This document shows, piece by piece, positions 36,091-51,567 of a stretch of 58,671 nt of DNA. Numbering within the stretch: the stretch's first letter is position 1; the number at the start of each line of letters is the position of its first letter. The stretch lies in the IMG/VR virus record IMGVR_UViG_3300032323_001828, positions 1 to 58,671 of that record; one strand, given 5' to 3'. The stretch is from a virus. The notes under the pieces were generated by a model that was given only the letters and a program-made list of their open reading frames with translations, was not told the origin of the DNA and searched no databases. Position numbers and translations under genes: made by a program.

Positions 36091-36325
36091 CGGTGCGTCT
36101 CACTGTTCGGGTAAATTTGCCTGGATCACGCTGATTGATAGCGTTCAGCAATTTGCGCTGTAGGTTCTGTGCATCTTCAGTGCTGTAACTTGAGTCAATC
36201 TGCTCCAACAGGCGAATGGCACTGGCAATAATGTTGGTAGCCCGGGTCTCAATCACATGGCGTTGATCGCGCTCGATGTACATTGAGTCTAGTTCTTCTA
36301 GTAAACTTCTAGTCTTTTTTTGCAT
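36077..36325 (-). CDS. conserved T4-like phage protein, 82 aa
   Basis: The opening RSLLEELDSMYIERDQRHVI and then NIIASAIRLLEQI are near-signature for a small protein conserved in T4-like cyanophages. Helical. It overlaps the next gene by 14 bases; the promoter at 36357-36385 lies just upstream. Function is unknown. Confidence 0.75.
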   Translation of the reverse strand: MQKKTRSLLEELDSMYIERDQRHVIETRATNIIASAIRLLEQIDSSYSTEDAQNLQRKLLNAINQRDPGKFTRTVRRTDANS

Positions 36326-36356
36326 AATAGTCCAGGACCTTTTTATTATTTATTCT

Positions 36357-36385
36357 ATTATAGCATACATTGTCCTTAAATACAA
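36357..36385 (-). promoter_or_regulatory. sigma70-like promoter for 36325..33578 genes
   Basis: Minus-strand TTGTAT (36380..36385), 17 bases, TATAAT (36357..36362), extended -10 TGC. It overlaps the start region of the divergent radical SAM gene at 36387. Confidence 0.6.
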
Positions 36386-36386
36386 G

Positions 36387-37421
36387 ATGGATACATTTTG
36401 CGTTTTGCCCTGGTATAGTTTAGAATTACCGAGTAATTCGCCATGTTGCTTGTTACCAAAAAACACCAATGTTGAGCAATTAAAACAGGACCTGCTGGCT
36501 GGAATCAAGTCCGACAGTTGTAAAAAATGTTGGTTCATTGAGGAAACTGGCAATATGAGTCGCCGGCAACTGGAAAATCAATTTTTAGACCACAAACTAA
36601 ATTGTGATTTAAGTAAAATACAGAAAGATTGCGTAGATAATAAAAACAAGACGTTGTTGTATCAGTTGACTACTAGCAATCTTTGTAATCAGGCCTGTGT
36701 ATCGTGCGGTAGTGGTGCCTCTTCAAAATGGGCAGAACTTAATAGAAAAAATAATCTACACTATGTCAAACACAAACAGTTGGACATTGGCTCTTTCGAT
36801 ATTGACTATGCGCAAATGCAACGACTTTCATTGCTAGGAGGGGAACCTTTGTTTGACCCTCAAACCTATGACATTTTACAAAATCTAGTAGATCACAACA
36901 ACACCGGCTGTTTTGTAACTCTGGTAACCAACGGCAGTATCCAGTTAAATTCATTGCAGGTTGATTTATTGAAGAAATTTACAGATTTAAATATTTGTAT
37001 CAGCATCGATGGCATCGAGTCTGCATTTGAATATCTGCGTTGGCCTGGTAATTGGAAAAACTTAATAAACAACTTAAATCATTATCAAGAAATAACTTCA
37101 AATATCAGTATAAGCTATACTATTAGTTCCCTCAATACATTGTACTATGATCAAACCACTGAGTGGTTTAATAAAAATAATTTAAGGTACAATCATAACA
37201 TAGTTGAATTTCCAAACTGGCTTTCAGTTAAAAATATGCCAATTGAGTTTAAAGAATTATTGAAAAATCATAGATTTTTCAAAGATCATTGTGTTGTTAA
37301 TGGACAGGAAAATTCATTGTCAGACTTAAGAAATCATGTTCTTCAGCAAGATAAACTCAAAAAAATTTCAATTCAAGACTACATGCCAGCGGTAGCTAAA
37401 TTGATTTTTGATACTGTATAA
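36387..37421 (+). CDS. radical SAM protein, twitch type (copy 1)
   Basis: A 344-aa radical SAM enzyme starting at ATG 36387 (MDTFCVLPWYSLELPSNSPC). An N-terminal Cys-bearing region (C5, CC, then C-x-x-C) precedes the [4Fe-4S] motif SNLCNQACVSCG (CxxxCxxC). SLLGGEPLF follows (GGE SAM-binding motif), then VTNGS and a conserved C-terminal DYMPAVAKLIF. It should cleave SAM to a 5'-deoxyadenosyl radical; the substrate is unknown. It converges with copy 2, overlapping it by 26 bases. It is A+T-rich relative to replication genes. A longer in-frame ORF upstream overlaps the 36325 gene and is unlikely. Confidence 0.85.
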   Translation: MDTFCVLPWYSLELPSNSPCCLLPKNTNVEQLKQDLLAGIKSDSCKKCWFIEETGNMSRRQLENQFLDHKLNCDLSKIQKDCVDNKNKTLLYQLTTSNLCNQACVSCGSGASSKWAELNRKNNLHYVKHKQLDIGSFDIDYAQMQRLSLLGGEPLFDPQTYDILQNLVDHNNTGCFVTLVTNGSIQLNSLQVDLLKKFTDLNICISIDGIESAFEYLRWPGNWKNLINNLNHYQEITSNISISYTISSLNTLYYDQTTEWFNKNNLRYNHNIVEFPNWLSVKNMPIEFKELLKNHRFFKDHCVVNGQENSLSDLRNHVLQQDKLKKISIQDYMPAVAKLIFDTV

Positions 37422-38511
37422 ACTTTGCCACTGCGGGGAAAACTTCTGACAGATCAAGTGCGCGACGATGATCATTGTTTTGAATAGTCTCGATTATTTG
37501 GGGTAAATTTTCCACTGCTGTACCCAGATTTGAAAAATTTTGTATCCAAGGCTGGCAATAGTTGTTTATACTTTGTAACTCTTGTATCATGTCAGCAGGC
37601 ATAGATTCTAATCCATAAATGCCAAATGCTTGATGGACATAAATTTCTATAGCATCTCCAAATTTTGAATGTGTAAAATTATTGCGGTGCCATTCAAACA
37701 CTGAATTTAAATCAAGTACATTTAAAATACTTGCAGTCACAGTCATTGATAACATACTGTTATGAGGTAAGTTATTCTTCCACCAAAACAGATTTTGTTC
37801 AACATCTGCCCATTTACCAGGATATCTTAGATAATCAAATTGATTACCAATGGCATCCACGCTAAAACTAATTCTGGCAAACTTAAATCTTTCAATCAGT
37901 TGTCGGGTGTCATTATCAATGATTTGGGTTCCATTGGTATTATACATTAATTTAACCAAGGATGTGTCCACTCGAGTCGCTATAAATTCTAATATTTTTT
38001 TGTGTGTCAAGGTAAGAAATGGTTCTCCTCCCCAAAATCTAATTTCTTTAAGTTGAGAAAAATCCAATTGTTCTAAATAATCTTTAATAAATTGATCTAA
38101 ATTAGGACGTACATCTACTCCTTTGATTTTCAGTTCATTTCTCCAGGTTGTACTCAACTCTGGGCCGCAGGTAACGCAAGCTAGATTACAAGTGTAGTCA
38201 ATGTTGATATCAAGATATTGCAAACTTGGAGTGTATGTGACAGTGCCATGTGTTTCCAAATACCCTAGCCGCATGCTTTTTTTAGAAGCTTGTTCCTGAC
38301 TCATACAGTCGTGACAGTGCTTAGATGGCAACACATCAGTTGCGTTGATATCTCTAAGAGATTGTATATCACTGTGATAGAAATCAACTTGTCCACTGCT
38401 GCGAATTGTACTATTTTTTGCCCAGCAACATACACTATAGTCAATGCTATTTTTTGTAATATTAGATAAAGTCAATCCGTGGTATATTCGCGGACAATAA
38501 AAATTACTCAT
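37396..38511 (-). CDS. radical SAM protein, twitch type (copy 2)
   Basis: A 371-aa homologue of copy 1. The N-terminal CPRI...SVCCWA and KHCHDC Cys pairs precede the cluster motif CNLACVTC, FWGGEPFLT and a YNTNG motif. The C-terminus SEVFPAVAKFIQYQ matches that of copy 1. Its ATG overlaps a TGA that ends a relic of the helicase 3' end (38512..38583), showing that this gene once followed the helicase directly. The substrate is unknown. Confidence 0.87.
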   Translation of the reverse strand: MSNFYCPRIYHGLTLSNITKNSIDYSVCCWAKNSTIRSSGQVDFYHSDIQSLRDINATDVLPSKHCHDCMSQEQASKKSMRLGYLETHGTVTYTPSLQYLDINIDYTCNLACVTCGPELSTTWRNELKIKGVDVRPNLDQFIKDYLEQLDFSQLKEIRFWGGEPFLTLTHKKILEFIATRVDTSLVKLMYNTNGTQIIDNDTRQLIERFKFARISFSVDAIGNQFDYLRYPGKWADVEQNLFWWKNNLPHNSMLSMTVTASILNVLDLNSVFEWHRNNFTHSKFGDAIEIYVHQAFGIYGLESMPADMIQELQSINNYCQPWIQNFSNLGTAVENLPQIIETIQNNDHRRALDLSEVFPAVAKFIQYQKSI

Positions 38512-39770: not shown

Positions 39771-41177
39771 TTAATTTGTCTTTATTTTGCCCAACAACTG
39801 TTTGAGCTTGGCACTTTGCACATCGGCTATGACTTTGCCAGACTCAATGACTTCTTCTTGTGCAGAATCTGCCGCCAAGGCCAGTCGACTTTGTGTTTTG
39901 ATACTGTTCAAGATATCAGGTTTACGGAACGCATTAACTGGTCCAGCTTCTTCGCCTGGATCAGTAATACGCATGGTTTCAATATTGTAGTCCAAGTCAA
40001 TCTTTTGCCCTACACCTGTACTGCTACGCGACTTCATACACTGTATTTGATACTTGCCACGCTCACGCATAGCACGACTTGTAAAGATACCAAACACGTT
40101 GTCTGCTGTGTTAATCTTACTGATACCACCCGAAATATGACTATGATCAAATTCAATTTCTTCCACTGCACTTCGATTTAACTGACTTGCTGTCACAAAC
40201 AACACATTAAGTTCTTTGGCCAAATTACGCAGTTCTTCACTAACATACTTGTCTTTGACAAACAAATCATTGGGACTGACCTTAGCACTGACTGGCATTA
40301 GTAAGTCCAAGTAGTCACACATGATAAAATCTACTCGAATGCCTGTTTGTACTTGCACTTCTTTGATGTAACTGCGAATGTCATTGATATTTGATTGTGC
40401 AGGCAATGCCTTGATACGATACTGCCCAGCTTTCTTGCTTACCAGTTTGACCTTGAGTTCGGTTTGATCAATGTCTTTACGAATTTCTTTTGTGCTCATA
40501 CCGGCCAACATGGCATCAGTACGCAACGCACACAGTTCTTCACTGAGTTCTAAACTGATATACACACCACTAAGTCCGGCCTGCAACCAACTCAAGGCTA
40601 TGTTCATCATGACCAAGCTCTTGCCCGATCCAGATCCACCAGCAAATATGTTTAGTTCGCCGCGACTGAATCCACCATACAAGATCTTGTCCATCTGTGG
40701 CCACCCGGTGCTCACTTGCCCACCGCTATTAAAATATTTGTCGATACGCAATCTAGGATCTGCCCAGTAATCTGTGCCCATGTCCTTGGTCAGACTGATC
40801 TGTACTGCATCCTTGATCAGTTTTTCTACTGGATCATACTCGCCTTTTTCCAGCAAGTCTGCACTCTTTAAGATTGCACGTTCTAGTTCTTGACGTCGAG
40901 TAAAGCCTTCAAACTCGGTCATGAACCATTCAAAGTGTCCGTCATTCAAGTCAGGAATATGTTTTAGTTCTACGCCAGTGGCTGCTCGAATTTGATCTGT
41001 GCCAGGCAATGTTTTGTATTCATTACTATGTGTGGCAATAAACTCGGCTACTGGGCGTAAACTTCTATCAAAGTTTTCTGGATTATAAATGTTCTGCACA
41101 CGCACATACGACTCTGCGTCTTGCAACATCATTTCTAAGAATAGTCGTTGGACCTCAAGCCCGTAGTCTTTTAACAA
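39771..41177 (-). CDS. replicative DNA helicase, DnaB/T4 gp41 family
   Basis: A 468-aa hexameric helicase that unwinds the replication fork with the primase. The RecA-like core starts STGWPQMDKILYGGFSRGEL with Walker A GGSGSGKS. FIMCDYLDLL (Walker B) and the DnaB-type TASQLNRSA motif follow. Length equals T4 gp41 (475 aa). The start appears to be TTG at 41177, with AAAGGAAACAAC as ribosome site supplied by the 3' end of the inserted radical SAM gene. The C-terminal codons are duplicated at 38512..38583. Confidence 0.94.
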   Translation of the reverse strand: MLKDYGLEVQRLFLEMMLQDAESYVRVQNIYNPENFDRSLRPVAEFIATHSNEYKTLPGTDQIRAATGVELKHIPDLNDGHFEWFMTEFEGFTRRQELERAILKSADLLEKGEYDPVEKLIKDAVQISLTKDMGTDYWADPRLRIDKYFNSGGQVSTGWPQMDKILYGGFSRGELNIFAGGSGSGKSLVMMNIALSWLQAGLSGVYISLELSEELCALRTDAMLAGMSTKEIRKDIDQTELKVKLVSKKAGQYRIKALPAQSNINDIRSYIKEVQVQTGIRVDFIMCDYLDLLMPVSAKVSPNDLFVKDKYVSEELRNLAKELNVLFVTASQLNRSAVEEIEFDHSHISGGISKINTADNVFGIFTSRAMRERGKYQIQCMKSRSSTGVGQKIDLDYNIETMRITDPGEEAGPVNAFRKPDILNSIKTQSRLALAADSAQEEVIESGKVIADVQSAKLKQLLGKIKTN

Positions 41178-41181
41178 GTTG
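41170..41181. repeat. 12-bp direct repeat flanking radical SAM copy 3 (other copy 42303..42314)
   Basis: The plus-strand sequence TTTAACAAGTTG occurs here at the helicase start and again at 42303..42314 at the primase end. On the minus strand it reads CAACTTGTTAAA and contains the TTG start codon of the gene that follows in each case. Confidence 0.8.
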
Positions 41182-42310
41182 TTTCCTTTTGTATTTCTGG
41201 TGACAGCGATTTACGCCAATCAATTTTTCTTAAAATGCTAAGACGATCTAAATAATCAACCCAGGCATTATCAGGCTGACTGTTTTGTTTTATATAGTTG
41301 ATTACAGTGTTTACTCCTGGGTATTTACTTAACGAGTATAACATATCTAGTGCCAGCAATGCTTGGTTTTTGGTAAGATGTTTTAAATCCAAAACCCGGC
41401 CGCCGTAGGAACTAGGCTCAATGCATCGTACAAATAGCTGGCTAGGATCGCCTTGACTACCAGTTTGACAATGCTCTTCCCACCAATGGAAAAACTCTGG
41501 CATGTTAAAAATATTGTGTATTCCAATTATAGCATTAACTTCTATTAGGATACTGATATTATTAAGCGATCTAAAATATTGTATGTTGTCTTGCACTTTG
41601 CTCCAAACCGCCGGGAATCTTGTAAATTCAAATGTGCTCTCAATTCCATCTAAACTAAAAAATAAACGTACAAACCGACACCGTTCCCAGAGCTCTAGTG
41701 TTTCCGCATCAGGTATAATAGTTCCGTTTGTGTTATACGATATCATAAGATTTGGTAACACTCCCAGTGTGTCTAAATGTTGTAATATTTTTTTATTGTC
41801 TCGATTTAGCAACGGCTCACCGCCGGTAAAGTGTAACTTTTTAATATGATTGAGATCCAAATGTTGCCATACTGACTCAGGGTTTTTCTTCAAGGTTATC
41901 TGCGGAGTGGATGGATCAAACAACTGATACTCGCCGCTCCAAGAACTACTATATGTAGAACTACAACTAATACATTTTAGATTGCACGCCAATGATTGCT
42001 CAAGGTGTAGGCTATGTATTACTTTTGATGTTGTGTCTTGCGATATTAATGAATTCCATTCCAACAACGATCGTTCTCGTTCATTGGCTATGTGCCCAGG
42101 TATGCTACAATAATGCGAACACGATTTAGGAACTGCTGTTTTACTCTCTTTGCGAATATTTTCCAAGGTTTGATGGTCAAAGGTAATTTTTTCTACCGTT
42201 TGTTTTTGTTGCCAACAACACATGGAAATAGTGTTTCTCCCCGAGGCTGTTGCTCCTATAAACAAACCTTGATTATAATAAGGGCAATGGGTGTCTGAAT
42301 TGTTTAACAA
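41171..42310 (-). CDS. radical SAM protein, twitch type (copy 3)
   Basis: A 379-aa homologue of copies 1 and 2. The N-terminal CPYYNQGLFIGA ... SMCCWQQ and KSCSHYC precede the cluster motif CNLKCISC, HFTGGEPLL and YNTNG. It lacks the PAVAK-type C-terminus. The start is TTG at 42310 and the last bases overlap the helicase start. It splits primase from helicase and is flanked by a 12-bp direct repeat, so it looks inserted. More A+T-rich than both neighbours. The substrate is unknown. Confidence 0.86.
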   Translation of the reverse strand: MLNNSDTHCPYYNQGLFIGATASGRNTISMCCWQQKQTVEKITFDHQTLENIRKESKTAVPKSCSHYCSIPGHIANERERSLLEWNSLISQDTTSKVIHSLHLEQSLACNLKCISCSSTYSSSWSGEYQLFDPSTPQITLKKNPESVWQHLDLNHIKKLHFTGGEPLLNRDNKKILQHLDTLGVLPNLMISYNTNGTIIPDAETLELWERCRFVRLFFSLDGIESTFEFTRFPAVWSKVQDNIQYFRSLNNISILIEVNAIIGIHNIFNMPEFFHWWEEHCQTGSQGDPSQLFVRCIEPSSYGGRVLDLKHLTKNQALLALDMLYSLSKYPGVNTVINYIKQNSQPDNAWVDYLDRLSILRKIDWRKSLSPEIQKETTC

Positions 42311-43250
42311 GTTGCTTCTTTCTCAGTTCTATCTTAATTTTGCTGGTTTCTTTTGCTTGCATTATAGTTATCAATGTGCCTAATCTGCCCAAACGAATCA
42401 CAGCATCGTTTACATCTTTGACCCCCGCGGGCCATTCGGGCATACTGACCGCCCAACCCAGTTCCACTGCACGATCTACTAACTTCATTCCGGCTTCATC
42501 CTGATCCGGCACCACAACCACCTCACGTCCAAGACTGCGTATCAGTCTTACTTGAGCATCATTAATGTCAGCATGCATAACCGCTAAACCGTTGATACTG
42601 AGTGCATCAAATACACCTTCTACCATAATTGCATACTGCCAGTTAGCGCCTTGAAGATCTGTTCCAAACACATAGCCATGCTGTATGTCCTGTATGTACT
42701 TGGGCATACGATCATCTAGAAATCTAGTAGTATGCCCAACCACTTGATTGTCATGTGTAAATGGAATTACTATGCCGGGACGTGGCATGGTTTTATACAT
42801 GAATGGATAGTCTAGTAGAATGCCTCTACCACGCAAATACTTTTCAGCTGTTTCATTTAACGGTTGGGTGTCTGCTGGTAGGTCTCGATCTTCAAATTCA
42901 ATGTTTTGTAACTTGTTGACAATCTCTTGTCGCTCGCCCAGCAGGCCTTCAATTGATTTGTGCTTTAGGCTTTCAAGATTGATGCGTTCAATTTCTTCCT
43001 GCGGCACATTCATCCACTCTAATAGTCGACGAGCTTTGAATGTTAAGTTGCGTCCCAGAACAAAACTGGCAGTATAGCCGCAGTTGAAACAGTGATAACT
43101 CCACGACCCGTCTGTGCCGGGTTTGATACCGCCACGCTGTCGACGATCCTGTGTGTCGCCGCGATGGATGCAACAGGGTGCGTTGAAGCTGATCCAGCCA
43201 CTGGCTGTTTGTTTACGCTTGCCGGGTAAAAAGGAAATCACATCAATCAT
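42273..43250 (-). CDS. DNA primase, T4 gp61 / DnaG type
   Basis: A 325-aa primase. The zinc-binding N-terminus has CCIH then CFNCGYTASF. The Toprim core has IMVEGVFDALSI (catalytic Glu) and VVVPDQDEAG (D-x-D). It makes RNA primers for the lagging strand with the gp41-type helicase. The last residues (LVKQFRHPLPLL) are encoded inside the start of radical SAM copy 3 and may be a new tail caused by that insertion. The ATG lies six bases after TATAAT with no ribosome site, predicting a leaderless mRNA. Confidence 0.93.
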   Translation of the reverse strand: MIDVISFLPGKRKQTASGWISFNAPCCIHRGDTQDRRQRGGIKPGTDGSWSYHCFNCGYTASFVLGRNLTFKARRLLEWMNVPQEEIERINLESLKHKSIEGLLGERQEIVNKLQNIEFEDRDLPADTQPLNETAEKYLRGRGILLDYPFMYKTMPRPGIVIPFTHDNQVVGHTTRFLDDRMPKYIQDIQHGYVFGTDLQGANWQYAIMVEGVFDALSINGLAVMHADINDAQVRLIRSLGREVVVVPDQDEAGMKLVDRAVELGWAVSMPEWPAGVKDVNDAVIRLGRLGTLITIMQAKETSKIKIELRKKQLVKQFRHPLPLL

Positions 43251-43297: not shown

Positions 43298-44449
43298 TTA
43301 TCTGTACAGTAGGTCGACCACATAACCTGTGCTGATAATAACAGCAGCTCCAGTTTGATTGGGATTGACTGGGAATACGCCTGGGCCTTGGCCAGCATTG
43401 GGCAGATACCAGTAACCCGATCCGCCATTGGTCACAGTAATGCCCGTAACCACACCTTCGGTAATCTGTGCTGTGGCTGTAGCACCGGCGCCTGTGCCAA
43501 TGATGTTGACTTTGGGTGGTGCCAAATAGCCCGACCCACCCTCGGTCACAGTGATACTGGTGACCACACCATTTTCTGTTGTGGCATACGCTATGGCCGG
43601 AATACCGGGCTGATCAGGTACAGCAAAAATACTGTTGTTGAAACACAATCTCATTATTGGATACCAGCCCACAAGATTCATGTAGATTGTACCAGTTTTG
43701 TTGAGATATGTAGTGGATTCGGTTATGTTGTAAAAGATGCTTTGATAGTTTTCCGCTGCCTGTGCCTTGATTGTTCCGGTATATCCGTCCAAGGTCATTT
43801 GTACTGTGGTCACTGCGTTGACCGGTTCAATAAAACTACTGAAAAATTCTGTATTTAAAAAACTGTTGTAGTAATTGGCACCATTAGGATTGCCGCCTGC
43901 CCAGTAAGGACTGGAGGGATATTGTCCCCAGGTGGCCCCATCATAACTGACCTCAGCAGAAAGTTTTGTGGTGGGAATTGTAAGTGGTGCGCTGGGCACA
44001 TACTGCGGCAATACGCTGTCCACAATGTTTACGGGAGCACGAGCACCCGCCTGCGCATTGGTAAACACCGCTTCGGTCAATCCGCCGGGCTGTGTTCGTT
44101 GTATGCTGTAGGTGGCCGGTTGTGCCAAGACTTCCAACAATTCTGTGCTGGTTAGCGTAACTTTGGCTCGGCCAGTTGCAGCATTCAGAGCCTCCAAGGG
44201 TTTTTCAACCAGTATTTGATCGCCTTGTGTGTTGATTGCGCGAAATAAAAAAGTACTGCCTGTGATGTTGACAGGTTTTTCTTCTTGATTTATAAATTCA
44301 AACAAGAGCACGTTGTCCACGCCTTTGTTTATGGTCAGTTGTTTTGCGTACACAGGATCGTACCTATAAGTAAAAGTTTCCCCCGCGCCAGTGTCTATGA
44401 GTAACACTCGTGTGAGCTGTTGATAGATATAAACCTGGGTAGAGTACAT
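43298..44449 (-). CDS. virion structural protein with GGSGY repeats
   Basis: A 383-aa protein that starts MYSTQVYIYQQLTRVLLIDT. It is beta-rich, and near the C-terminus has two copies of a repeat of the form G-V-V-T-x-I-T-V-T-x-G-G-S-G-Y, with GTGAGATATAQI between them. Such GGSGY repeats are common in phage tail and fibre-like proteins. No ribosome site precedes the ATG; an ACTAAATA late promoter variant ends six bases before it. Confidence 0.75.
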   Translation of the reverse strand: MYSTQVYIYQQLTRVLLIDTGAGETFTYRYDPVYAKQLTINKGVDNVLLFEFINQEEKPVNITGSTFLFRAINTQGDQILVEKPLEALNAATGRAKVTLTSTELLEVLAQPATYSIQRTQPGGLTEAVFTNAQAGARAPVNIVDSVLPQYVPSAPLTIPTTKLSAEVSYDGATWGQYPSSPYWAGGNPNGANYYNSFLNTEFFSSFIEPVNAVTTVQMTLDGYTGTIKAQAAENYQSIFYNITESTTYLNKTGTIYMNLVGWYPIMRLCFNNSIFAVPDQPGIPAIAYATTENGVVTSITVTEGGSGYLAPPKVNIIGTGAGATATAQITEGVVTGITVTNGGSGYWYLPNAGQGPGVFPVNPNQTGAAVIISTGYVVDLLYR

Positions 44450-44455
44450 ACAGAG

Positions 44456-44463
44456 TATTTAGT
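44456..44463 (-). promoter_or_regulatory. late promoter variant ACTAAATA adjacent to ATG
   Basis: Minus-strand ACTAAATA ends six bases before ATG 44449. T4-type late transcription would then start at or next to the start codon. Confidence 0.45.
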
Positions 44464-44473
44464 GCCTTTGTGC

Positions 44474-44887
44474 GTGGTCGAGATATGGTTTGGTAAATAT
44501 TCACACTATATGAACAATGATTTTTTTGAAAAACTGGCTGAAAAATACCCATTTATAACATTGTGTGTCTATGCCACAACAGAATACGTGGGCATTATAC
44601 AAAATCAAGATGAGGCAATAACTACCATCTACGATTTTGGTGCCATACAAGACTTGGAAATCAAACGTCAGTTTTTGGAACTGGCCAATATTTGGTGGTG
44701 GGAAAGCAATAGAACTGTGCCCATCAATATATTCCTCAAAGGCGACTGGGATCAATTCAAACCCTACTTACGAACTTTTACCAACAAAGACCTGGAAGTC
44801 TTGCATGGCCCAGTGTGCAGTCTCAGCGAAATGAGTCGCAAAAAAAGCAAGAGAAAATCAATTACTCTGGTCAGACGCCTTGACTGA
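44474..44887 (+). CDS. conserved phage protein with WWWESNR motif
   Basis: A small alpha/beta protein on the plus strand. The core YVGIIQNQDEAITTIYDFGA, then FLELANIWWWESNRTVPINI and the end SKRKSITLVRR, matches a family conserved in T4-like phages (FLxLxxxWWWESNRxxPIxIFL) of unknown function. The start is uncertain: GTG 44474 gives an N-terminal strand (VVEIWFGKY), ATG 44510 gives 125 aa. An earlier ATG at 44420 would overlap the opposite-strand gene. The 3' end overlaps the convergent gene by 17 bases. Confidence 0.7.
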   Translation: MVEIWFGKYSHYMNNDFFEKLAEKYPFITLCVYATTEYVGIIQNQDEAITTIYDFGAIQDLEIKRQFLELANIWWWESNRTVPINIFLKGDWDQFKPYLRTFTNKDLEVLHGPVCSLSEMSRKKSKRKSITLVRRLD

Positions 44888-45440
44888 GCAAGTTCATGTG
44901 CAAGGCCACTAGAGCGGCATAGCCGATGGCATGTGCATGTTTGAACACAAATCCTCTACTATCGTCGCCGTCCCACACTGATTTAAATACAACGTCCCAG
45001 GATTGATTTTGCAGGTGTGCTTTACCCGGGCGGATTATACTAATAAATGCAGCCATACGAGTAATAGAATCTGGACGCATTGATTCTAGTAGTTGCGTAT
45101 AATTGCCCACGTGCACCAACTGACTGACCCATGCAGTATCGGTCCATAAACGACTCCACGGCGGTTCTTGTGCCAGCAGTTGTTCATAGTGTTCATAACT
45201 TTTTATCAGCTGATACACACTCATGTTCAGCAAGTCAATTTTAAAATAGCCCAGTTGTTCAGCTGTTTCATAATCTATGGCCGCACATCCGTGTACTGGA
45301 TCCTGTGGTATATCAGTCACGTACACACCGCTGTTGTGTCGCCGTATTTGAGTTTGGTGTGTTTGACGTGCTGGTGTTGCCCGAATTAGTTGTAGTAACT
45401 GTTCTCTGTCGGCCAAATCGATGTCAATGTCTGCGCTCAT
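44871..45440 (-). CDS. miniature DnaE-like (C-family polymerase) protein
   Basis: A 189-aa protein carrying, in the right order, several core motifs of bacterial DNA polymerase III alpha (about 1160 aa). ADIDIDLADREQL matches the catalytic PDxDxDF strand (D4, D6, D8). HNSGVYVTDIP matches the RxxGxHxxGVV segment. EQLGYFKIDLLNM matches the third catalytic Asp region KxDFLGL (D69). LLESMRPDSI then ISIIRPG matches LKPDxxEDLxAxxALxRPG, and FVFKHAHAIGYAAL matches FNKSHAxAYAxx. PHP, thumb, beta-binding and OB parts are missing. The ATG lies six bases after TAAAAT, so its mRNA should be leaderless. Function is unknown. Confidence 0.75.
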   Translation of the reverse strand: MSADIDIDLADREQLLQLIRATPARQTHQTQIRRHNSGVYVTDIPQDPVHGCAAIDYETAEQLGYFKIDLLNMSVYQLIKSYEHYEQLLAQEPPWSRLWTDTAWVSQLVHVGNYTQLLESMRPDSITRMAAFISIIRPGKAHLQNQSWDVVFKSVWDGDDSRGFVFKHAHAIGYAALVALHMNLLSQGV

Positions 45441-45444
45441 GATC

Positions 45445-46434
45445 TTATTTTACACGAAAATCCAACACATGTCTACTGTTGGTGAACCATGTGGTAGTAG
45501 CTGCAGGAAATTCACAGTTCCATAAGTTTTCTAACTGTGCCAAAATATAACTTTCCTGCATGAGATCCAACTTGGGCAATTCAAAATCTTTACCTTGACA
45601 TATTTGATCTATCAACTGATCGCAATGTATCTTTGAGTTTCGATAAGGTTGCTTGCTTAGAAATATTTCATGCAGTTGCCGGATGGCGGTTTCTTGTTTG
45701 AATTCATATCCGGACCATTGTGCTATGTGTTGTAGTTGTTGTACAAACTGGTCTGTATTGTAAAAACTTGCAAATGGAAATATCTTTACATCATTGCTGG
45801 AGTCGTAAATCATTTTTTCCTGCTGTGTTATAAATCCTGATTGATAGGGTTTTTTAAAACCAATTTTGAAAAATTCTCTAAGTACATTCCGTGGACAATC
45901 TACATGTTCGGAGTCTAATCGTAACAGGCGCAAATTGTGTTGACCCAGACATTCTGATTTTATCCATTCCGGTAACTGATCAAAATCATCAAGGTTGTTA
46001 CAATCAGGCCAGCTTTCATCCTTGACTGCTGCATAACTATCAGCAAACTGTGTTTTAAAAAAACTTGCAATCAAGTTGTCCAGTACCCACTTATAGTCTG
46101 GATTATTAAGTTTGTTATAGGTGTTGATTTCCAACAGGTCATTGTCAAGACCGTGATCACCGGCTCGTAACAAACTAATAGACTGCAACGGCAATAGATC
46201 AGATGTGGTTATTTGTATGCTGATTATTTTGCTGTCGAAGATCTCTGTTCGTACGCCACGAAAGTCAGAGTAGTGCCAGCAGTCAAATTGTTTCTCTTCA
46301 TGATACCGTTTAGCATGTGAAGCTCCTTGCTGGTTGAATGGCGTATCATTGCAGGCTACGCCGGCTAGGAATTTATTACAGACAAAATCCAAATAGTTGC
46401 CGTGAGTACCACCATGAAAATCGATATAGATCAT
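45445..46434 (-). CDS. uncharacterised phage protein, 329 aa
   Basis: It starts MIYIDFHGGTHGNYLDFVCN; the GGTHGNYL turn after a hydrophobic strand resembles the P-loop of sulfotransferase-like phage proteins, and this opening recurs in marine phages. The rest is mixed alpha/beta, rich in Asp, Gln and Phe. A transferase role is a guess. It abuts the zinc-finger gene upstream (TAA-ATG) and carries the promoter of the mini-DnaE gene in its 3' end. Confidence 0.6.
   Translation of the reverse strand: MIYIDFHGGTHGNYLDFVCNKFLAGVACNDTPFNQQGASHAKRYHEEKQFDCWHYSDFRGVRTEIFDSKIISIQITTSDLLPLQSISLLRAGDHGLDNDLLEINTYNKLNNPDYKWVLDNLIASFFKTQFADSYAAVKDESWPDCNNLDDFDQLPEWIKSECLGQHNLRLLRLDSEHVDCPRNVLREFFKIGFKKPYQSGFITQQEKMIYDSSNDVKIFPFASFYNTDQFVQQLQHIAQWSGYEFKQETAIRQLHEIFLSKQPYRNSKIHCDQLIDQICQGKDFELPKLDLMQESYILAQLENLWNCEFPAATTTWFTNSRHVLDFRVK
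45447..45475 (-). promoter_or_regulatory. sigma70-like promoter giving a leaderless mini-DnaE mRNA
   Basis: Minus-strand TAGACA (45470..45475), 17 bases, TAAAAT (45447..45452), then six bases to ATG 45440. It lies inside the end of the 45445..46434 gene. Confidence 0.55.
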
Positions 46435-47109
46435 TTACCAACCGGCCCTTTGCAACATGTCGCGCACATATTCTTGGTCAGCTACATAATCACGAAACTT
46501 TTTCATCCATACTTCCGAATCAATGTAGGGCCATAATATGGCAATTTGTGTAGCATCTAATTCGCCTAAGAACTTTTGTCCTGAATCACAGTTGTACACT
46601 ATCCAAGGACTGATCCTACCAGCGGTCACAGCATAGACCATGGCATTGACATTGCCATAGCGTAGGCAATCCTCTGCAGGATGTCCTGTTTTTTCTGCCC
46701 AGTCGATGCCAAATTCCATGGCACGAGCCAGGGCATCATTGATGTTTTCAACTTTTAAATAGTCGATAAGATATTCTGTATACACAGTGTCTTTGCACCA
46801 GTGATCAATTTTTTTGTTTTGTTTTAACACCCACTTGGTAAATTGCTCTGGGTTAATAGCCTTGACATCTACACAGTATCGACCAAACTTTACAAATGCA
46901 CGATAGTAAGGACTGTCACAAAAGTCATCATAGGTTTTTAATTTGGCACTGCCTTGAGTAAGTTCATAAAACTTGATGTATGAATAGAACCCCAGTCTGA
47001 CACCAGGCTCATCTTGTTGCTGTCGACGACGACGCGGTTCGCACGAATGCACTGCAAGACTAGACTCTTTGACAAAGTCTTTTTTGCAATACTGACATGT
47101 GTATTTCAT
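46435..47109 (-). CDS. C2H2 zinc-finger phage protein
   Basis: A 224-aa protein with an N-terminal C2H2-like finger (YTCQYCKKDFVKESSLAVHSC; Cys4/Cys7 and His plus Cys), a basic linker (EPRRRRQQQDE) and a large helical domain (GVRLGFYSYIKFYE ... MLQRAGW). Similar finger proteins occur near the clamp-loader genes of T4-like cyanophages. DNA binding is likely. The ATG overlaps the clamp-loader-like gene by four bases. Confidence 0.75.
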   Translation of the reverse strand: MKYTCQYCKKDFVKESSLAVHSCEPRRRRQQQDEPGVRLGFYSYIKFYELTQGSAKLKTYDDFCDSPYYRAFVKFGRYCVDVKAINPEQFTKWVLKQNKKIDHWCKDTVYTEYLIDYLKVENINDALARAMEFGIDWAEKTGHPAEDCLRYGNVNAMVYAVTAGRISPWIVYNCDSGQKFLGELDATQIAILWPYIDSEVWMKKFRDYVADQEYVRDMLQRAGW

Positions 47110-48095: not shown

Positions 48096-49556
48096 TTATT
48101 TCCAAGCTAGTTTTTCTTGTGTAAATGGATATGAAGCCTCCTTATAAAACTGCTTGCGTTTGGTCAAGTGACGTTTTGCAAATCTACATGTTGATGTCAC
48201 GTCCCAGATCTGTACATGATCCTTGTCTTCGGCCTTGCGGATACCTCGCCCTATGCTTTGTATCACTCGGACAAAACTCTTGCCAGGTTCCACAAGAACC
48301 AGATTGAAAATCCTAGGTATATTGATACCCACCGCAGCCACGCCATACGTGGCCACAATGATCTTGCCTGTTGCATCAGCCACTTCATCATATTCATCCT
48401 GTCTCGCCTTGGCCTTGGTTGCACCCGATACCATTACAGCGTTATCACCCAAGCGTTCTATTAGGCCCTGTCCGGCTGCAATACGATCTACCAACACAAG
48501 AGTGTTGCCTGTGAGATTGACTTGCCGGATCAAATTGGCTATGGTGTCTAATCTGCCAGGCTCTTCCAACAGGTATTTTAGCTCGCTTTGATAATTGGTA
48601 AACTCTGCATGATCTTCCAATTGTACAATGTTCACATGACATTGTGCCAGCACACCTTGGCTTTGCAGTTCGCTGGCGCTGAGCTTGCCAATCACCGGGC
48701 CAAGACTACACTTCAGGGCTTGGAATTCGAATGGTTCCTTGGGTATGGTTCCTGTGAGTCCCCAGCGCAAGGGAATACGACTCATGACTCCGGTCAGCAG
48801 GGTCTTTAATGCGTCGGCCTTGGCCATGTGTACTTCATCCACAATAACACACACTACATCTTCAAGAAACTCACCGATAGTAACATCACCTACAGAATTT
48901 TTTGTATTCTTCAGTAGCACATTTAAACTTTGCCAGGTACAGATGGTGTGCTGGCGTCCCCACTCTTTGCGGTCTCCAAAGTACACACCCACATCCTGTT
49001 GCATGTTGATGTAGTCTTTTTCTGTTTGTGTGACCAGACTCTTGTTGGGCACAATCACAATAGTACGGCCTAAGGGCGCCACAGCGTTGCTAAGTGCGGC
49101 TGTAATAACAGTCTTACCAGCGCCAGTGGCAATCTCTTGTATGCACTGTGGATTGGATAAAAAGTTGTTGATAATTTCCACTTGATAGTCACGCATGACC
49201 ATGGGTTCGCCGGCCTGCGGATGACCCTTGGGCCAAGTGATATGGCCAAATGAATCCTCAGTGACCTGCTCAAATTCAAATGTGGTAGAATAGTCTCGCT
49301 GATCATTTAAGTCAATATCGTAGTTGAACTTCTCTAGAATAGGAATAATTTCTGGCAACAAGTTTACATAGGTACTGCCGCCCAGTTGAAAATAACTGAC
49401 TTTACCGTCCCAGCGTCCGAGGCGCACTGCTGGCAGGTATCTGGCCCCGGGCACATCATACTTGAAGGCATTTACTAAGGCGCGCCGAGCATCAAGTTCT
49501 AAGCCTTCTATTTTGATATTGACTTCATCGCGGATAATGATAGTGGCTGTTTTCAT
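48096..49556 (-). CDS. uvsW: UvsW-type DNA/RNA helicase
   Basis: A 486-aa SF2 helicase (T4 UvsW is 503 aa) that remodels branched DNA and removes R-loops, favouring recombination-dependent replication. Motifs: EIATGAGKT (Walker A), VDEVH (DEAH-type box), LTGTIP (motif III), TYGVAAVGINI (motif V) and QSIGRGIRKAED (motif VI). The N-terminal domain carries the GRWDGKVSYF motif of UvsW. The start overlaps the upstream gene by four bases. Confidence 0.94.
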   Translation of the reverse strand: MKTATIIIRDEVNIKIEGLELDARRALVNAFKYDVPGARYLPAVRLGRWDGKVSYFQLGGSTYVNLLPEIIPILEKFNYDIDLNDQRDYSTTFEFEQVTEDSFGHITWPKGHPQAGEPMVMRDYQVEIINNFLSNPQCIQEIATGAGKTVITAALSNAVAPLGRTIVIVPNKSLVTQTEKDYINMQQDVGVYFGDRKEWGRQHTICTWQSLNVLLKNTKNSVGDVTIGEFLEDVVCVIVDEVHMAKADALKTLLTGVMSRIPLRWGLTGTIPKEPFEFQALKCSLGPVIGKLSASELQSQGVLAQCHVNIVQLEDHAEFTNYQSELKYLLEEPGRLDTIANLIRQVNLTGNTLVLVDRIAAGQGLIERLGDNAVMVSGATKAKARQDEYDEVADATGKIIVATYGVAAVGINIPRIFNLVLVEPGKSFVRVIQSIGRGIRKAEDKDHVQIWDVTSTCRFAKRHLTKRKQFYKEASYPFTQEKLAWK

Positions 49557-50541: not shown

Positions 50542-51567
50542 TTAAGAATTTTTCATACAAGTTGTGGCAGCAAGTGCTCTCCAATTTGTATCTGATACAC
50601 GAGTCAGATCTGCAATCTTTAGTGCCATGCGCAGGCTCATCTCACGCAGGCGAGTTTGATTCTGTTCCATAAACTCGATCACCATGTCACCTTGTTCTTG
50701 CGAGAAGTCGTAGTCTGCAAACAGTTCGCCCTTGCGATAGATTTGCTTGATACGCAAGAAACGATCACGCATGGTGTTAAGGGTCAAGTCCAGGAAGTGA
50801 CAACGACTCTGTAAGGCTTCCAAGTGGTCTTGTAACTTCTTGCTCTTAAGGTTGCTGAACTGCAAGTTGGTAATAAAGATACAAGCACCTTTGAAGTCAA
50901 ACATGTCTGGAACGCCTTCACGACGCAACATGGCACTGTCACTGTTCCAATAGATCCTACGCTTCTTGCCCGAATCCAAAGCCGCTTTCAAAATGTTCAA
51001 GCTCAAGTCATCTTGGAACACCGAGTCACAGTCGTCGAACACCAGCACATTGTTCTTGTCTGAATGTTTGTATAGAGTGCAGTACAGGCCAATCGGAGTC
51101 ATGGCACCTTTGATCACTTCATACTTGATCTTACGGCCTGACAATTTGTCAAACAAGCCCGAATGCTCCAACTGTTTTTCCACACCATAACTCTTGCCCA
51201 CACCAGGAGGGCCAACCACAATCATGGCACGCACATCGCCGGCAATGGTGGCCTTGGTCATTTGATCAAGAATGTCAAATCTTTGACCAATACGTTCCAT
51301 GATTTCTTCGTCAGTTTCTACCGGTGTCTTTACAACCGGCGACATCATTTCGCCAACCACTGCCGATTCGCCTACAAATTCTACGTCTTCGATTGAGTTC
51401 ACATTGATACGAACTACTTCGGGCAAGTCTGGGCCAAAATAGCCATCTGCATTCACAGTCACATAGCCTCCTCGGGCACCTGTTTGAAAACCCTTAACCA
51501 AGTTAAAGATCATGTTGTTTACGGGTTGATTACGGTATGTTCCGTTTATAATTTTTACTACGCTCAA
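50542..51567 (-). CDS. phage AAA+ ATPase
   Basis: A 341-aa protein with a P-loop GPPGVGKSYG (Walker A, about residue 118), VLVFDDCD (Walker B) and FITNL (sensor 1-like). The C-terminal LREMSLRMALKIADL is a helical lid region. The family is widespread in phages and uncharacterised; it is not a typical gp44. The start is TTG at 51567 with TTAAGGAGCTAACC as ribosome site, set by the early promoter at 51600-51628. It forms a single-gene unit ending at the UUCG terminator. Confidence 0.85.
   Translation of the reverse strand: MSVVKIINGTYRNQPVNNMIFNLVKGFQTGARGGYVTVNADGYFGPDLPEVVRINVNSIEDVEFVGESAVVGEMMSPVVKTPVETDEEIMERIGQRFDILDQMTKATIAGDVRAMIVVGPPGVGKSYGVEKQLEHSGLFDKLSGRKIKYEVIKGAMTPIGLYCTLYKHSDKNNVLVFDDCDSVFQDDLSLNILKAALDSGKKRRIYWNSDSAMLRREGVPDMFDFKGACIFITNLQFSNLKSKKLQDHLEALQSRCHFLDLTLNTMRDRFLRIKQIYRKGELFADYDFSQEQGDMVIEFMEQNQTRLREMSLRMALKIADLTRVSDTNWRALAATTCMKNS

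Follow-up and report, generated by a model that had tools for sequence, protein, structure and literature searches.

A minimal split form of the DNA polymerase III (Pol III) alpha subunit has been described in jumbo phages, where it occurs beside a family B polymerase (Iyer et al. 2021, Viruses 13:63, PMC7824862). In that study the split enzyme is phage-specific and is assigned to jumbo phages of group 2.2, a group that includes Atu_ph07. It is made up of a standalone C-terminal unit, with Mg-binding and template-binding subdomains, and an N-terminal unit that binds nucleotide triphosphate (NTP) and is supplied by a distant gene; such modules were proposed to resemble an ancestral Pol III (PMC7824862). 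In the later literature the split description was found only in Iyer et al. 2021, with no experimental follow-up found, and a 2026 review of jumbo phages makes no mention of DNA polymerase. The protein CBB_328 was called a 'truncated' alpha subunit in 2017 (PMC5259590); by position, it is the equivalent of the N-terminal half. Here we analyze a gene for a 189-aa protein in the IMG/VR virus record IMGVR_UViG_3300032323_001828, the whole 58,671-nucleotide stretch of which is referred to as the window.

The split Pol III alpha was thus already described in 2021, and the window gene is a further member of that kind. We consider it probable that the gene encodes the C-terminal half (C half) of a minimal C-family polymerase that a large T4-related phage makes as two proteins, and that this half holds the metal-binding palm strands and shortened fingers. 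Added here are the position of the break at residue level, invariance statistics, support from AlphaFold and Foldseek, the segments that are missing, and carriers such as Slicko01 and RAS14.

Sequence and predicted fold of the C half

The 189-aa open reading frame (ORF) singled out by an earlier, sequence-only reading of the window is a real gene (Table 1). The five motif blocks of C-family polymerases (Pol III alpha/DnaE) noticed in that reading are all present and in order: DIDID at residues 4-8, RRHNSGVYV at 33-41, GYFKIDLL at 64-71, LLESMRPDS...IIRPGK at 117-140 and FVFKHAHAIGYA at 164-175. Single-sequence searches of PDB and Pfam with the protein gave nothing significant, and the relationship emerged only with profiles and structure. 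The protein was assigned to PHROG family 11778, labeled 'DNA polymerase', at 8e-55, and the DnaE-family profile phrog_405 matches it across the KxD region at 2e-5. Together with the number and the residue invariance of the homologues given below, these matches put the motif blocks well outside what chance would produce. The Pfam DnaE finger domain PF17657 is matched by eight of ten divergent members (best 6e-5). When a profile of the C half was compared to PDB, all seven matches listed were Pol III alpha, and in the two best of them several blocks align in the same order. In an hhalign comparison to DnaE, K67/D69 fall on K553/D555 and the RPG block on residues 639-641.

The AlphaFold2 model of the C half has a pLDDT of 91.1. 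Its best 11 Foldseek matches in PDB are all C-family polymerases (probability 0.80-1.00), including 3e0d with a TMq of 0.47 and an rmsd of 4.0 over 136 columns. The C half is accordingly modeled with the palm and fingers fold of C-family polymerases. Profile matches, fold and residue invariance agree in bearing out the sequence-only reading on its central point, that the gene belongs to the C family and keeps the catalytic residues. That reading had placed the catalytic aspartates at D4/D6 or D6/D8 together with D69. D69 (D555 in DnaE) stands; based on alignment to E. coli PDFDVDF (P400-F406), the metal-binding pair is most likely D4/D6, equivalent to D401/D403, and not D6/D8, with D8 equivalent to D405. 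D401, D403 and D555 are the catalytic residues of E. coli DnaE.

Homologues of the C half were found by tblastn in 63 phage records, mostly jumbo phages of 280-490 kb, with hosts among Enterobacteriaceae, Pseudomonas, Xanthomonas, Agrobacterium, Sinorhizobium and Vibrio. Homologues are also carried by at least 595 IMG/VR stretches. A scan of IMG/VR based on a Vibrio phage gave no relatives. When ten far-diverged members, which share 29-41% identity with the window protein, were aligned, the residues without variation included D4, D6, D8, H35, G38, K67, D69, R137, P138, K140, H170 and Y174. A set of 149 distinct homologues shows no substitution at D4, D6, D8, H35, G38, K67, D69, P123, R137, P138, K140 or H170. 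The median dN/dS of 0.08, from the 12 pairs unsaturated at synonymous sites, points to strong purifying selection on the C half. The gene is therefore kept, as had been claimed.

The partner half and the break point

The C half begins at the catalytic DxDxD strand and does not contain the Gly-Ser nucleotide-binding motif, because in DnaE this motif precedes the strand at which the C half starts. A DnaE profile search of relatives revealed a second small ORF of ~173-175 aa that matches DnaE just ahead of DxDxD. A separate ~175-aa ORF with the DnaE NTPase region (PF07733) is present in six of the first seven records, and 32/32 partner sequences scanned match this Pfam family, DNA_pol3_alpha. The sequence of this N-terminal half (N half) reads ...WGVGRGSSVASYVLYKLGVH...EFLR-stop, and its GRGS is identical in all 41 N halves. 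The sequence-only reading took the gene for a miniature polymerase. A self-contained miniature has to be given up, since the C half has no Gly-Ser motif and, in relatives, a second gene of ~173 aa carries it.

The N half aligns to residues 366-406 of Mycobacterium tuberculosis DnaE1, and the C half to the same chain from 413 on. In E. coli DnaE numbering, the N half stops at ~393 and the C half starts at ~398. N halves end no more than three residues past an invariant E-F, and in 155 of 174 loci the C half begins three residues before DxDxD. Judging from these alignments, the break point is common to the whole family. For the predicted fold of the N half, the best 19 structure matches are all C-family.

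Both halves were found on the same strand in 17 of the 20 records examined, five of them isolated phages and twelve IMG/VR contigs. In each of the three exceptions (G004, G012 and G013) the half that was found lies within about 3 kb of the contig end at which its partner would have been lost. Nine long contigs place the N half on the strand of the C half, 82-119 kb farther downstream, which for the window is a position beyond its left end. Contig ends account for the missing partner in the three exceptions and most likely also in the window. A family B polymerase is present in 12/12 relatives; none is visible in the window, a 58.7-kb fragment.

In Stenotrophomonas phage RAS14 only the N half was detected by tblastn, and the diverged C half was recovered by profile. 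Both RAS14 and Alishewanella phage Slicko01, which at 141 kb is below jumbo size, carry the two halves annotated as hypothetical. In a 343-kb contig of L221 (G007:C1:279822-280385), the C-half match crosses one in-frame TAG, possibly an amber recoding or else a natural gene end inside the profile match. It should also be mentioned that the dnaE-like gene of Thomasclavelia phage TR-TP1 takes the form of two ORFs separated by an HNH endonuclease gene, at a different break point; this is an independent splitting of a phage C-family polymerase.

Proposed mechanism

In nucleotidyl transfer of the Pol beta type, a Gly-Ser turn holds the triphosphate and acidic residues hold two metals. As the Gly-Ser turn and the metal-binding acids are supplied here by two chains, these are most simply taken to form a heterodimer that shares a single composite active site. 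The partner would be encoded on the same strand tens of kb away, most likely beyond the contig end, and its GRGS would bind the nucleotide triphosphate. The halves would associate where DnaE is continuous (~393/398 in E. coli), rebuilding a single site with GRGS from one chain and D4, D6, D69 and K67 from the other. Alongside the main family B replicase, the pair would then catalyze nucleotidyl transfer, either at the phage fork or in the filling of gaps.

Several observations weigh against this proposal. Two segments conserved in cellular DnaE are missing from the phage version, ~412-505 (with ITFGTMAAKAVIRDVGR) and ~645-750 (with YQEQVM and LRRAMGKK). Catalysis is therefore not to be assumed; either other residues take over, for which K140 is a candidate, or the chemistry is simpler than processive synthesis. 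The PHP, thumb, little-finger and clamp-binding parts are absent as well. The matches of the C-half profile to Pol III alpha in PDB are individually weak (E 0.08-1), and the hhalign match to DnaE, at E 9e-4, has a probability of only 24%. The model of the N half is moderately confident only (pLDDT 79, pTM 0.53), and PF07733 was not found within the window, itself a fragment.

A bolder version of the proposal, to which we give slightly less than an even chance, is that an obligate heterodimer of ~180-aa proteins forms the smallest active C-family polymerase known. It would carry out templated DNA synthesis without the palm helix and the LRRAMGKK fingers segment, both conserved in cellular DnaE, with the family-specific Lys140 possibly taking over a phosphate contact, and, next to the family B replicase, would cooperate with the phage clamp loader and primase.

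Alternative explanations

The pair might instead be a nucleotidyl transferase of another kind, an extender of short oligonucleotides, termini or RNA primers that uses the same Pol beta-like site. Such an enzyme would fit the combination of wholly invariant active-site residues with the absence of most parts by which DnaE grips DNA, as well as the family B replicase already present in these phages and the position of the C half beside primase and DnaB helicase. We nevertheless find it rather unlikely, as the RPG block and the FNKSHAxAYA helix, both elements of polymerase fingers, are retained, and the N half lies near the clamp loader in phage GAP32.

Less likely still is a non-catalytic factor, in which the C half binds or mimics the host Pol III or clamp and regulates or poisons host replication. 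The small size of the protein and the absence of half the polymerase core from its chain are in line with such a decoy, an idea raised in the sequence-only reading. A decoy would need neither the active-site residues nor an NTP-binding half, yet 149/149 homologues keep the three aspartates, the lysine and the other active-site residues unchanged, and the complementary NTP-binding half, likewise invariant, occurs together with the C half. No positive evidence for a decoy was obtained, and the clamp-binding C-terminal region of DnaE is wholly absent.

That two-thirds of DnaE is missing could also be taken as the mark of a decaying relic of an acquired dnaE gene, as 'relic' in the sequence-only reading implied. 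This is very improbable and is refuted by conservation: the active site is invariant across deeply diverged phages, dN/dS is about 0.08, gene order is conserved and there is no decayed flanking dnaE. Rejoining by a split intein, as known for cyanobacterial DnaE genes (PMC3919608), can be dismissed with near certainty on sequence grounds, as no intein sequence follows the EFL[R/K] with which N halves end, and none precedes the C halves, whose start is three residues ahead of DxDxD.

Gene neighborhood

The C half lies within a replication gene block that is conserved across these phages in the order UvsW-like helicase, several small genes of unknown function, C half, a small convergent gene, a virion protein, primase and DnaB helicase (Table 1).

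Table 1. Positions in the window of the C-half gene, its conserved motifs and neighboring genes
Feature	Position	Strand	Basis or remark
Probable C-terminal half of a split minimal C-family (Pol III alpha-like) DNA polymerase, PHROG 11778	44871..45440	-	189 aa, ATG start; homology and AlphaFold2/Foldseek
Catalytic strand D4-I-D6-I-D8 = E. coli DnaE D401/D403/D405	45417..45431	-	149/149; aligned to MtDnaE1 413-425
H35-N-S-G38-V-Y-V = DnaE H511-A-G-G514-V-V	45318..45338	-	H35 and G38 149/149; E. coli sequence
K67-I-D69 = DnaE K553-F-D555, third catalytic Asp and adjacent Lys	45234..45242	-	hhalign against DnaE; 149/149
R137-P-G-K140 = DnaE R639-P640-G641; K140 peculiar to the phage family	45021..45032	-	R137, P138 and K140 149/149
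F166-KHAHAIG-Y174 helix = DnaE fingers F756-NKSHSAA-Y764	44919..44945	-	H170 149/149, Y174 148/149
Upstream gene, 329 aa, function unknown	45445..46434	-	Ends 4 nt before the polymerase-half start
DnaG-type (Toprim) primase, conserved downstream neighbor of the C half	42273..43250	-	Same order in relatives
DnaB-like replicative helicase, conserved downstream neighbor	39771..41177	-	
UvsW-like helicase, conserved upstream neighbor	48096..49556	-	Same order in relatives
phrog_11058, conserved neighbor	46435-47109	-	C2H2 zinc-finger-like N terminus (weak, E 0.016)

The C half and the upstream 329-aa gene are probably on the same transcript. A promoter of its own, as had been assumed, is unsupported, since the start lies 4 nt past the upstream stop and promoter-like matches in the region are no commoner than in shuffles (5 versus 6.5); the single nearby promoter-like site would leave almost no leader. 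The clamp-loader-like gene said to lie nearby needs correction. It is an AAA gene at 50542-51567 that is only weakly clamp-loader-like (3.6e-4) and matches best to a family without assigned function. In GAP32 the N half (247206-247724 of NC_019401.1) is four genes upstream of the annotated clamp loader, and a few genes past the N half of PA5oct and Phosso there is an AAA-type or clamp-loader-like gene, with a GroES-like gene also near. This suggests a clamp-loader link for the N half.

The small convergent gene, phrog_11637 of unknown function (44420-44887, + strand), runs 17 nt into the 3' end of the polymerase half. A small gene in the same tail-to-tail position is also found in GAP32, Phosso, PA5oct, 121Q, RaK2, Vibrio 2.275.O, Atu_ph07, SCTP-2 and Slicko01, amid neighbors that nearly all run the opposite way; the conserved convergent arrangement may couple or antagonize expression. 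Three radical-SAM genes (36276-37421, + strand; 37396-38511 and 41171-42310, - strand), one of them between primase and DnaB helicase, are possibly related to modified bases or peptides.

Comparison with known systems

If the two halves do form an active polymerase, the pair would define a minimal catalytic core of the bacterial replicase family that is workable as two chains, and the proposed resemblance to an ancestral Pol III (Iyer et al. 2021, PMC7824862) would become testable at the bench. The pair also has a bearing on why T4-related phages of a large, abundant group maintain two DNA polymerases that are unrelated to each other. The family is common, with at least 595 IMG/VR stretches, yet its members usually go under the label hypothetical or membrane protein.

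Compared to the split Pol III alpha of Iyer et al. 2021, nothing essential differs in the window gene, which comes from an uncultivated phage of the same broad group (2.2) and is likewise a standalone C-terminal unit. That their C-terminal unit is PHROG 11778 is concluded from the agreement in description and in phage group. With respect to E. coli DnaE and the structures 2hnh, 3e0d and 5lew, D401/D403/D555, K553, H511, G514, R639-P640 and H760/Y764 have counterparts in the C half, and G361-R-G-S364 in the N half. The phage pair has about 360 aa in two chains, whereas DnaE has 1160 in one; the pair is without the PHP, thumb, little-finger, OB and clamp-binding parts, and two conserved palm/fingers segments are missing. 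The full-length DnaE of other phages (Streptomyces phage Sollertia gp82 and the group 3.2 jumbo phages) has in common with the pair its C-family membership and its place in a phage replication block. Unlike the split phage pair, Sollertia gp82 is a single chain of 1106 aa.
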